In this document: positions 43,140 through 53,002 of the stretch, in pieces
Layout: each line of letters opens with the position of its first letter
Numbering within the stretch: the first letter of the stretch is position 1
Assembly (NCBI RefSeq): GCF_002209355.2
Contig: NZ_CP106855.1
Span: 3,100,001 to 3,164,000 of the forward strand
Source of the DNA: Bdellovibrio sp. SKB1291214
GTDB taxonomy: Bacteria; Bdellovibrionota; Bdellovibrionia; Bdellovibrionales; Bdellovibrionaceae
Length of the DNA: 64,000 nucleotides
Reading direction: 5' to 3'
Position numbers and translations under genes: made by a program
Notes under the pieces: generated by a model
The model's database searches: none
Seen by the model: the letters and a program-made list of their open reading frames with translations, nothing else
What the model was told of the DNA's origin: nothing

Positions 43140-43742
43140 TTAGAGATTCGAAGCTGGTATGAAAAGGGACTCACGAAGTCCCTTTCGTTTTTTCTGGAAC
43201 CTAATTTGAGTTAACCCGTTATTTAAGGCTACAAGTTCTTTACGTTCCCAGTCCTGTTCAAAATTGCCTTCGCCAAACAATCTAATCCCCGAACCCAGAA
43301 CGGTGGGTACCAGCGTCAGGATGATTTCATCAATCACGCCCCCCTTCATCAAGGTCGCAGCCAAACCCCCGCCTCCAACGATCCAAATACGATTCTTAAA
43401 TTCGTGCTTTAAGTTATCAACCAAACTCACCGGATCTTCATTGGTCACGGTGACCAGCGCGAGGTCTCGCGTATCAACTTCACCTCGGGTACAAACGAAC
43501 ACTCTTTTGTCGGGATAAGGAAACTCCATAAAAGACATCAGCACCTCAAACGTACGACGTCCCATAACCAAAACATCCACCGAAGAAAAAAACCGATGAT
43601 ACTCAAAAAGATCAACCGCCTCGCCACCCAAAACAGAAAAAGAATTATGTTGCGGAATATGGCGAACCCAATCCAAGGAATCATCCGCCTTAGCAATAAA
43701 CCCATCAATACTGACCGCCACATAATAGCAACAAGTCCCCAT
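43140..43742 (-). CDS. RibD/dihydrofolate-reductase-like protein
   Basis: 200 aa of the RibD C-terminal/DHFR-like family (small NADPH-dependent reductases such as YwjB/YyaP). Signatures: YYVAVSIDGFIAKADDSLDWV at the start, VLVMGRRTFEVLMSF, RIWIVGGGGLAATLMKGG and DEIILTLVPTVLGSGIRLF. The start is uncertain: the ATG at 43742 begins at the conserved strand but has no good Shine-Dalgarno; a GTG further up is possible. It lies on the opposite strand inside the T2SS cluster, between gspF and gspG, and a plus-strand terminator is embedded in its 3' end. Probably an insertion unrelated to secretion. Confidence 0.85.
   Translation of the reverse strand: MGTCCYYVAVSIDGFIAKADDSLDWVRHIPQHNSFSVLGGEAVDLFEYHRFFSSVDVLVMGRRTFEVLMSFMEFPYPDKRVFVCTRGEVDTRDLALVTVTNEDPVSLVDNLKHEFKNRIWIVGGGGLAATLMKGGVIDEIILTLVPTVLGSGIRLFGEGNFEQDWERKELVALNNGLTQIRFQKKRKGLRESLFIPASNL
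43163..43193 (+). terminator. Terminator after gspF
   Basis: AAAGGGACT (43163-43171) pairs with AGTCCCTTT (43177-43185), followed on the plus strand by CG-TTTTTT. It stops the gspCDEF transcript 30 nt after gspF. The same DNA codes for the C-terminus of the minus-strand reductase. Confidence 0.75.
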
Positions 43743-44317
43743 ACCAAAAATGATGCGCCCACATGAAAGATCCCTCAACACACCCCCGCAAGAAACAAGA
43801 ACAAAAACTTAAACTAAAACTTCAAGCTCCTGCATTGAGCTCACTACGCCCTTGGGCGCAGCAGAACGTCAGCTAAAACATTCGAAACAACCAGTTAAAG
43901 TAAAATCCAACAAACCACGATAACCCGTTGGTTTGATTCAAATTTGAACGCCTTTATATGATTGAAACACAGAAAAACTTCTTCGTTATAGTGTATGGAG
44001 AGGAGTCTGCCTTCGAGTTCCGCAGGCCTGTGGGAAACAAAGAAAGCACAATTGTAAATCGAGCCCCAAACAAAACTTAAGGAGCACAAGAAACGAGCGA
44101 GGATACGAATGCCATGATGGCATTCGTACGCGTAGCCCGAAGGGGCAATGGCAGGAGCCATTGACACTGCCCGAGATAAGCAGACACCTCTCCATACACT
44201 TTAACGAAGCAACGCCAACCTGCGTTTTAACAAGACAAAAGACGCCTCAAAGAAGAAGCAACCCTTTACGCCGATACCCGAGTCTGTTAAGATTTCACAG
44301 CTAACAAGGAGTTTCGA
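43743..44317. other. Non-coding region inside the T2SS cluster
   Basis: About 575 nt without a supported gene. It contains the 229 bp inverted-repeat element (43981-44209) and AT-rich DNA on both sides. The last bases carry the AAGGAG ribosome site of gspG. A promoter for gspG-N must lie here or be inside the element; I did not find a convincing one. Confidence 0.6.
43981..44209. repeat. 229 bp element with 30 bp terminal inverted repeats and inner hairpins
   Basis: The left arm 43981-44010 and right arm 44180-44209 are inverted repeats matching at 28 of 30 positions (mismatches at the 9th and 24th). Inside lie three compact hairpins: an 11 bp stem TACGAATGCCA/TGGCATTCGTA, AATGGC/GCCATT with an AGGA loop, and GCCC/GGGC with a GAAG loop; TTCC.../...GGAA near the left arm is also self-complementary. 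No transposase and no obvious target duplication. It could be a MITE-like palindrome or a structured RNA gene. Confidence 0.75.
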
Positions 44318-51512: not shown

Positions 51513-51950
51513 ATGTCTGGAGTAAATAAAGTTATTATCGTAGGTCGTCTTGGTGCTGATCCAGAAGTGAAAGCAATCGGAAGTGGGAGCACTGTAGCTC
51601 GCCTTAACATCGCAACGAGCGAATCATGGGTTAAAGACGGTCAACGTCAGGAAAAAACTGAATGGCACCGTGTAACTGTATGGGGCAAATTGGCAGAAAT
51701 CTGCGGCAAACACCTTTCTAAAGGTCGCCAAGTTTACGTTGAAGGTAAACTTCAAACTCGCTCATGGGAAGACCAACAAGGTCAAAAACGTTACGCTACA
51801 GAGATCGTAGCGAACACTGTTCAATTCCTTGGTGCTGCGGGTGCAGAATCTTCTTCTCGTTCATCTAATTCAGGTGGCGGAGATGATTTCAACTTCAACG
51901 ATTTCGGACCAGAACCTAGTTTCAATTCAAACGACGAAATTCCTTTCTAG
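51513..51950 (+). CDS. ssb: Single-stranded DNA-binding protein
   Basis: 145 aa. OB-fold (about 1-110: [63 protein letters not shown]), a short Gly/Ser-rich linker, and the acidic tip DEIPF that recruits partner proteins. GGAGGG precedes the ATG. Shorter linker than the E. coli protein (178 aa). Confidence 0.97.
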
Positions 51951-52320
51951 GATTTCTTCGTTCGTTGATGACGGTACGGGCTTTTCACAGTGTTGGAAAG
52001 CCCCGCGCCGCTCACCCGGCCTTCCAGGCCTTGCCGGGCTTTGATACCGCATCGTGCGGGCCCGGAGGATTCACTCCACAGGGCTCTCCCACACAGGGAA
52101 AATCCCGAAGTAATTCTCTCTTCGAAACACCCTAGAAATGAATTCCGCCGTTTGAATCCGCGCGAGCAAAGACACAAAACCACAAAAATTATCCTTAAAC
52201 GTCGTGGTTCCTCCCCTCTCTCTCTGCAACGCTGCCGAACAAAACGGAGAAAACGGTTGAGAAATAAAATCGGTACCCCGATTTTATTTCGAAGGATATG
52301 TCGTATCTCAAACAAAGGAC
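51951..52320. other. Structured non-coding region after ssb
   Basis: About 370 nt with no supported gene. CGGTA (51972-51976) and TACCG (52045-52049) enclose two hairpins: a 9 bp stem GGGCTTTTC/GGAAAGCCC (51978-51986 with 51995-52003) and CCCGGC/GCCGGG (52015-52020 with 52033-52038). It is followed by CCGCA/TGCGG and a long stretch up to a terminator-like hairpin at 52261. The branched layout suggests a folded RNA, but it could be only a 3' UTR of ssb. Confidence 0.45.
52261..52290. terminator. 13 bp perfect hairpin
   Basis: GAAATAAAATCGG (52261-52273) pairs perfectly with its inverse at 52278-52290 around TACC. Its AT-rich outer part acts like an A-tract and T-tract on either strand. It could end the ssb transcript or a small RNA. 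Confidence 0.55.
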
Positions 52321-52588
52321 CCTTCGGCAGTCTAAACTAGTTCAATTGGTTCGAGGGGGACTGACTTGGGCGCTGGGGCCTGGGGATGTGAGTGCAGCGA
52401 CCTCCGTGGGCGCCACGATGGCGCGCACTCGCCGCAGGCGAGCCACGGCTGAGCCATGGATGGCGTGTCGCGGAAGTCACGTCCCCAGGACACGGTGACC
52501 AAGGCAGGCCCCCTCGGACCGATTGGGCGAAAGCCTAGATTAAGGAGGGGGTTTTGTCTTTAGAGAGTGAGAACTTTATACTTGAAAT
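52321..52588. other. Remainder of the ssb-downstream non-coding region
   Basis: Dominated by the GC-rich nested hairpin element at 52343-52525. After it come about 60 nt including AAGGAGGGGG and a possible promoter for the lipoprotein gene at 52589; nothing else was recognised. Confidence 0.5.
52343..52525. repeat. GC-rich nested inverted-repeat element
   Basis: The outer arms 52343-52369 and 52499-52525 match at 23 of 27 positions (two of the rest are G-U compatible). Second arms, 52379-52391 and 52477-52489, match at 12 of 13. Inside these lie GCGAC/GTCGC, CGCCA/TGGCG, and hairpins CTCGCC/GGCGAG, GCGCCA/TGGCGC and CCA-GGCT/AGCC-TGG. The whole could fold to a long branched rod of about 180 nt. 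Its base composition is far more GC-rich than the flanking genes. Confidence 0.7.
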
Positions 52589-53002
52589 ATGAAGTCAGCA
52601 GCGTTGATTGTTATTTCTTTAATGTTTCTAGAAGGTTGTTCGGTTTATAAATCCGATGGTCGCAATCAATTTGAGGCCGCTGCTCCCGCTAAAATTAAAA
52701 CTGCTTCTTTATCCGCGTCGGCTGAAATCTATAAGCTTGTCGGATGCAAAACCCAAACTCCCCTTGAGACTTGGTTTAATGATGAATTTCCTCGCACCAA
52801 CTACGAACTCGTGGTGATGGAAAATGATCTGGAGATTTGGCGTACGACTCATTCGGGTTCTGTTGAAGTTAAAGCCATCCAACGTGGTGAAAACAAGTAT
52901 GTCCAAAGCTGTTCCTATGAATTTGCGACAGCTGCTATTTGGGATCTTTACCGAGAGCAATTTATCCGTGAACTTGAAAACAACTTGATGATCAGCGAAT
53001 GA
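52589..53002 (+). CDS. Hypothetical lipoprotein
   Basis: 137 aa with a lipoprotein signal (lipobox FLEGC, Cys17). The mature protein is short, with two further cysteines, and no family is recognised. Its stop overlaps the start of the beta-barrel gene (ATGA), so the two are translationally coupled and may form an outer-membrane pair. Confidence 0.75.
   Translation: MKSAALIVISLMFLEGCSVYKSDGRNQFEAAAPAKIKTASLSASAEIYKLVGCKTQTPLETWFNDEFPRTNYELVVMENDLEIWRTTHSGSVEVKAIQRGENKYVQSCSYEFATAAIWDLYREQFIRELENNLMISE

Follow-up and report, generated by a model that had tools for sequence, protein, structure and literature searches.

Among described systems, the REP/BIME/REPIN repeats with their RAYT (Y1) proteins come close to the element family analysed here, since like it they are extragenic, dispersed, hairpin-forming and often found near gene 3' ends. 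ERIC-type sequences, other long imperfect-palindrome repeats and MITEs resemble it in being long imperfect palindromes scattered between genes, and in ERIC-type repeats and MITEs the entire repeat is homologous between copies. The STAXI motif, a repeated structured candidate for which both RNA and single-stranded DNA have been considered, consists of tandem pseudoknots and was noted near genes for single-strand-binding proteins (PMC2864571). In presumed relatives of the host, eight individual sRNAs, also structured and intergenic, have been reported from the attack phase of Bdellovibrio bacteriovorus, where they are not described as a repeat family (PMC3627812).

Here we analyse a long hairpin of Bdellovibrio sp. 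SKB1291214 (genome G000, 3,681,188 bases). It lies in a window, the whole stretch of 64,000 nucleotides under analysis, that covers genome positions 3100001-3164000; coordinates are those of the window unless a genome is named. The hairpin is one copy of a previously undescribed family of dispersed structured elements. Searches of openly available papers yielded no description that we recognised as this family.

Results

An earlier note had pointed to a nested inverted repeat at 52343-52525. It is present, and arm alignment sets its extent at 52346-52523 (Table 1). As RNA, the + strand folds at -128.2 kcal/mol, against -87.2 +/- 5.1 for shuffled sequences (z -8.05; 0 of 200 as good), and the - strand at -103.7 (z -6.0); about 50 columns of the outer arm pair. 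In the core, an internal loop GCA/GGA is followed by the stem GCGAC/GTCGC, a stem CCGTGG/CCACGG encloses the hairpins GCGCC-ACGAT-GGCGC and CTCGCC-GCA-GGCGAG, and a further hairpin is formed by GCC-ATGGAT-GGC. Across copies the loop of the middle hairpin is mostly C(AAA)G, C(GAA)G or C(GCA)G (37, 33 and 16, respectively). A mid-stem module is kept in the orthologues of G022 and G012, with the stem segments on either side of it replaced by other complementary sequence, and a foot (5' CGAAGGCAAA-ATTTG, 3' CAAAT-CCCCGCACTACGAA) is also conserved in other species. Neither an intrinsic terminator (GC hairpin plus T run) in 51900-52700 nor, across copies, a T run after the right arms was found.

Table 1. 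Positions of the element, its parts and associated features in the window
Feature	Position	Strand	Evidence
Whole element, outer arms and core	52346..52523	+	Fold z -8.05, arm alignment, R1 match
Conserved three-hairpin core (GCA...GGA), 81 nt	52394..52474	+	Near-invariant columns in alignment A1, 15 own-genome copies
Left variable arm	52346..52393	+	Pairs with 52475-52523; compensated replacement in G022 and G012 orthologues
Right variable arm	52475..52523	+	Partner of left arm; compensated replacement in G022 and G012 orthologues
Mid-stem module, left half CTGACTTGGGCGCTGGGGCCTG, many A.G mismatches	52361..52382	+	Identical in three species
Mid-stem module, right half CAGGACACGGTGACCAAGGCAG	52486..52507	+	G000 same as G022; two differences in G012
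Divergent partner element	51925..52157	-	Arms; R1 core match 51996-52088, 31 bits
Related element of other core type, before pseudopilin-like gene	43981..44209	+	Arms; link via L018/L023
A/C-rich footprint left of the 43981 element	43251..43980	+	C-G up to +0.31, A-T up to +0.35

Searching the host genome with just the queried DNA turned up matches at 17 further places, most of them limited to the middle ~80 nt. When folded, the copies have a common core flanked by long outer arms whose sequences vary among copies but which pair with each other in nearly all of them; L013 and L017 are weak, degenerate copies. A covariance model (R1) made from an alignment of 15 copies of this genome (A1) matches the queried copy at 52381-52487 with 115 bits and detects 23 places in G000, the weakest at E 0.008, which bears out the earlier suggestion of a class of large structured elements in this genome. 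There are 3-31 R1 copies per genome in 21 of 23 other genomes of the genus, and G003 and G004 have no match; other genera of the same family and order contain a few, and 23 of 241 genomes of the phylum have matches at E <= 1e-6. The elements have a median length of 153 bp (range about 130-270 bp), and many copies are common to orthologous loci. What is demonstrated is a variety of dispersed structured repeats.

No family match was obtained in phages, plasmids or IMG/VR, and a 17-base core pattern, too short to inform, gave chance matches only against the genome collection. The comparison with known RNAs proposed in the earlier note came out negative: Rfam 15 had 0 matches in the window and in the loci of seven relatives, with chance-level hits only in a relaxed search, and because nothing in Rfam matches, the element is not a member of the 6S, RNase P, tmRNA or OLE/ROOL families. 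A bacterial Y RNA was also considered and rejected, the Ro60/Rsr (TROVE) protein being found in 0 of 24 genomes of the genus, with the control genome positive.

How do the arms keep pairing as they diverge? All 13 arm pairs of A1 vary on both sides with pairing kept, and over the whole structure 77 cells are double-changed, whereas shuffles predict 27.3 and none of 500 reaches 77; when the partner strand is slid by 1-3 columns, pairing in A1 falls from 92% to 30-46%. At orthologous loci (28 comparisons, some sharing members), 177 arm pairs carry changes in both partners and still form Watson-Crick pairs, 109 carry a change in one partner (34 of them through G.U) and 806 are unchanged, so compensatory substitutions in relatives, which the earlier note had looked to as a check, are found. 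The core is mostly 0.84-1.0 identical between orthologues, with a few at 0.62-0.81. The arms diverge at about the rate of flanking noncoding DNA and can be as low as 45-62% identical where the flanks are 69-91% (e.g. L247/L226 and L280/L278). The double changes may have arisen stepwise under selection or by templating of one arm on the other, and the data fit both. Copying of arms between paralogues was rejected, as there is no arm similarity beyond the common modules, the exception being copies in genome G176 (see below), which share arms. Homing by a DGR or a group II intron was rejected as well: G000 has no reverse transcriptase (4 of the 24 genomes of the genus have one), and reverse transcription is excluded for G000.

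Isolated mismatches flanked by paired bases differ between the strands, with 212 A.G against 9 of the other-strand image C.T, 79 G.T against 28 A.C and 27 A.A against 8 T.T, counts that include orthologues and thus copies that are not fully independent; G000 alone has 45 A.G, 6 C.T, 19 G.T and 3 A.C. The A.G mismatches lie mainly in the contexts GAC/GGC and GAT/AGC. The remark in the earlier note that differences in the outer arms are G-U compatible holds, but A.G/G.A are the commoner departures; its idea that RNA-type pairing is selected agrees with these strand-specific mismatches and with the 177 double against 109 single changes. A palindrome acting at the level of the duplex would give symmetric mismatches, and the asymmetry fits RNA and single-stranded DNA of the + strand alike. 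Because the mismatches are strand-specific, one strand, the + strand of the core, is selected to fold.

Relative to the core, the left and right genes (simple longest-ORF calls) lie on strands +- in 36 cases, ++ in 31, -- in 25 and -+ in 9. Of 61 right-hand '-' genes, 33 end no more than 40 nt from the element, against 5 of 67 left-hand '+' genes. Such a location, next to the 3' ends of convergent genes, hints at a role as a boundary. Every close pair noted has the divergent order (- then +); examples come from G000, G005, G013, G014, G015, G018, G020 and G022. The partner of the queried element overlaps the 3' end of an ssb-like ORF with its outer left arm, and its orthologues in G012 and G022 score 39 and 33.5 bits with R1. 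A perfect 13-bp hairpin, GAAATAAAATCGG-TACC-CCGATTTTATTTC, is located between both divergent elements at 52261-52290, and both sides of its stem are changed in the G022 and G012 orthologues. A common neighbouring protein family was sought, and only orthologous groups surfaced.

These positions bear on the possibility that the element is a structured noncoding RNA, or a 3'-end RNA domain, transcribed rightward and functional as + strand RNA. Such an RNA would agree with the excess of G.T over A.C and of A.G over C.T on the + strand, with the right arm lying near the stop of '-' strand genes, with the divergent orientation of the close pairs, and with a pyrimidine-C motif, ATCTCC, that occurs 28 times upstream and 3 times downstream of the elements. 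The element might keep antisense transcription from entering the right-hand gene that converges on it, and the G-poor stretch upstream might be kept unstructured or serve Rho loading. However, no sigma70-type promoter was found in the 150 nt upstream of the elements in either orientation of that region, and the footprint described next adds two further objections, so that we regard the RNA reading as somewhat unlikely.

Averaged over 85 single copies oriented by the core, the DNA left of the elements has a C-G skew of up to +0.29 and an A-T skew of up to +0.29, reaching about 0 by 1 kb with an exponential decay of 520 +/- 50 bp, and to the right the skew is about 0. The left side exceeds the right in 95 of 104 copies, and the left skew is equal across all four orientations of the neighbouring genes. 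It sits at third codon positions of the left genes on either strand (C-G.465/A-T.355 and.345/.461). Ordinary gene ends do not account for it, as shown by controls from 1.6 Mb of G000: upstream of 163 ordinary terminators the sum skew is 0.02, with 1.8% above 0.4, against 0.51 and 71% for 17 copies of G000 (p 5e-11), and 1012 ORF ends have no such skew; a general trait of terminators or of ORF ends is rejected by both controls. The footprint is also present in G005, G018, G019 and G020, and is weak in G013, G015 and G023. In 55 copies the direction of replication made no difference to the skew. That comparison placed the origin at coordinate 0, a position that is correct for G012 and G022, where dnaA lies at the start, but conflicts with the skew of G000. 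In the queried copy the left skew is no more than weak (0.14/0.05), and that left side is occupied by its partner element.

Silent sites allow mutation to be weighed against constraint. Within 600 bp of the elements, 4-fold sites of the + strand have the composition A.365, C.423, G.112 and T.100 on the left and A.277, C.264, G.211 and T.249 on the right, that is, 79% A+C on the left against 54% on the right. Divergence at these sites is about.34 on the left against.30 on the right, where ~.27 would be expected on the left if the right-side exchange rates are applied to the left composition; after normalisation, transition exchange on the left is roughly 1.6-1.7 times that on the right, and A-C exchange does not differ between the sides. 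Since silent divergence is not reduced and transition exchange is higher, mutation is favoured over constraint, and purifying selection is disfavoured as the source of the A/C richness. The unreduced silent divergence also counts against the RNA reading, as does a skew that reaches ~1 kb into coding sequence even where the + strand is antisense.

A one-sided skew might also come from leftward transcription, the element acting as a start site or as the seed of an R-loop that exposes the - strand. In eukaryotes, transcription starts show a skew that decays with distance, and the G/T-rich bias of the - strand and its decay resemble that pattern. The left skew is, however, unchanged by the strand of the right gene, right-hand gene bodies show little skew, and the upstream region holds no promoter motif in either orientation; we consider this origin very unlikely.

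In G176, which belongs to another family, six copies (L386, L391, L396, L400, L405 and L409) form a dispersed repeat of ~200 bp with the same core. They are close to each other in sequence, their arms are alignable between copies and covary, and their surroundings are unrelated; they are possibly a recent expansion. Of the features used to define MITEs, the ends of this repeat are discernible and target-site duplications are not established, and within the genus the arms are not conserved. No flanking skew was found beside the G176 copies. Such a repeat would fit a REP/MITE-like mobile element of single-stranded DNA that a RAYT-like Y1 transposase mobilises in trans, and so would the selection of a single strand, as in single-strand transposition, and the presence of Y1 proteins in 21 of 24 genomes of the genus. 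The skew would then reflect leftward strand displacement from a nick at the right end, with the - strand exposed to deamination, and its sign agrees. Yet none of five Y1 genes examined has an adjoining R1 element, the correlation between copy numbers is weak (Spearman 0.31, p 0.14), a Y1 match is lacking in G013 despite its 16-17 elements, and orthologous copies are still paired over long divergence, unlike dead repeats. Transposition of this kind is in our judgement an unlikely explanation.

The earlier note had likened the queried element to the secretion-system element at 43981-44209, and this likeness is upheld by a G000 locus at 2740633 (L018/L023) that matches both, and by the one-sided skew that also flanks 43981-44209, by far the strongest in the window. 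Diverged relatives of the 43981-44209 element occur in 12 of 24 genomes of the genus, and a scan of the window for quasi-palindromes with 60-330 nt loops reached a score of at least 17 only for 43981-44209 and 51925-52157. The view that the queried element and the one at 43981-44209 belong to one broad class is supported. A composite at G000 2740633-2740764 (L018/L050) has the family core with a 43981-44209-type subdomain inserted in the first hairpin.

Elements of other core types have a left-side skew as in the queried family, and the G000 skew peak at 149821 also adjoins another folded element. At G000 80817-80986 (L304), 31-bp perfect arms with a 107-nt loop lie beside a skew peak at 80181, and TCGAGTTCCGCAGGCC, read by eye, is common to this element and 43981-44209. 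Folded elements edge strong A/C-rich skew peaks at G000 416521-416920 and 2549121-2549520 (L320 and L379), which have a third core in common, CCGCAGCGCAGGCGT...ACGTCGGAGCGAGGAC, also read by eye. At G000 714241-714640, 995381-995780 and 227401-227800 there are strong skew peaks with no folded element found adjacent. Given the peaks at 995381 and 227401, the association of skew and element is strong, not exclusive.

Discussion

Our observations are a folded strand with a conserved core, arms that change in a compensated manner, and a one-sided bias without reduced silent divergence. We tentatively propose, as a possible rather than a probable explanation, that the element is a polar roadblock to copying: the folded + strand would stall synthesis, and error-prone gap filling would leave the skew. 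While single-stranded, the + strand would form a rod of high stability. Because copying of the + strand always proceeds from right to left, synthesis would halt at the rod's right foot and resume further left, leaving a gap that spans the element together with a few hundred bases to its left. Error-prone synthesis across this gap would then introduce G.T wobble errors (G to A and T to C, with the + strand as template), which would build up a leftward-decaying A/C-rich trail. The stall, the gap and the filling with wobble errors are what we infer. This roadblock model ties the selected strand to the side and the sign of the bias, independently of gene direction. Excess damage to an exposed + strand would shift the composition the other way, and the model therefore requires error-prone filling to dominate.

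Several observations speak against the roadblock. The strong peaks at 995381 and 227401 have no adjacent folded element, the footprint of the queried copy is weak, and G176 has no skew, for which the sole account is the assumed youth of its copies.

In a wider sense, folded elements throughout the genome could be polar foci of strand-specific mutagenesis that direct errors into ~0.5-1 kb on one side only and reshape the codon use of their neighbours, while the two sides of their own stems change in concert. We take this to be a serious possibility, if one that stops somewhat short of probable; we know of no bacterial system with such foci, and the reading, if true, would be categorically new. 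Should the footprint stem from mutation, a physical structure of DNA or RNA would be tied to a directional gradient of mutation that sequence alone makes measurable at silent sites, providing a natural system in which to study how folded strands stall copying and an explanation for local codon-use bias beside such sites. If the element is an RNA, it would represent a large, multi-copy, fast-covarying class overlooked by curated libraries.

How does the family compare with known systems? Whereas STAXI consists of tandem pseudoknots, the elements described here are single or divergent three-hairpin rods with no constant gene association. They differ from ERIC repeats and MITEs in that homology is confined to the core and short modules, with arms that are unrelated within Bdellovibrio-like genomes. 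A RAYT gene flanked by repeat copies is a hallmark of REP systems, and five Y1 loci had no nearby R1 match. The REP unit is a short hairpin (20-40 nt) with a conserved 5' tetranucleotide, in contrast to a median of 153 bp and a branched core of 81 nt in this family, which is thus far larger (about 130-270 bp) and multi-branched, and which is further set apart from REP by its copy-specific, compensated arms and its one-sided skew.
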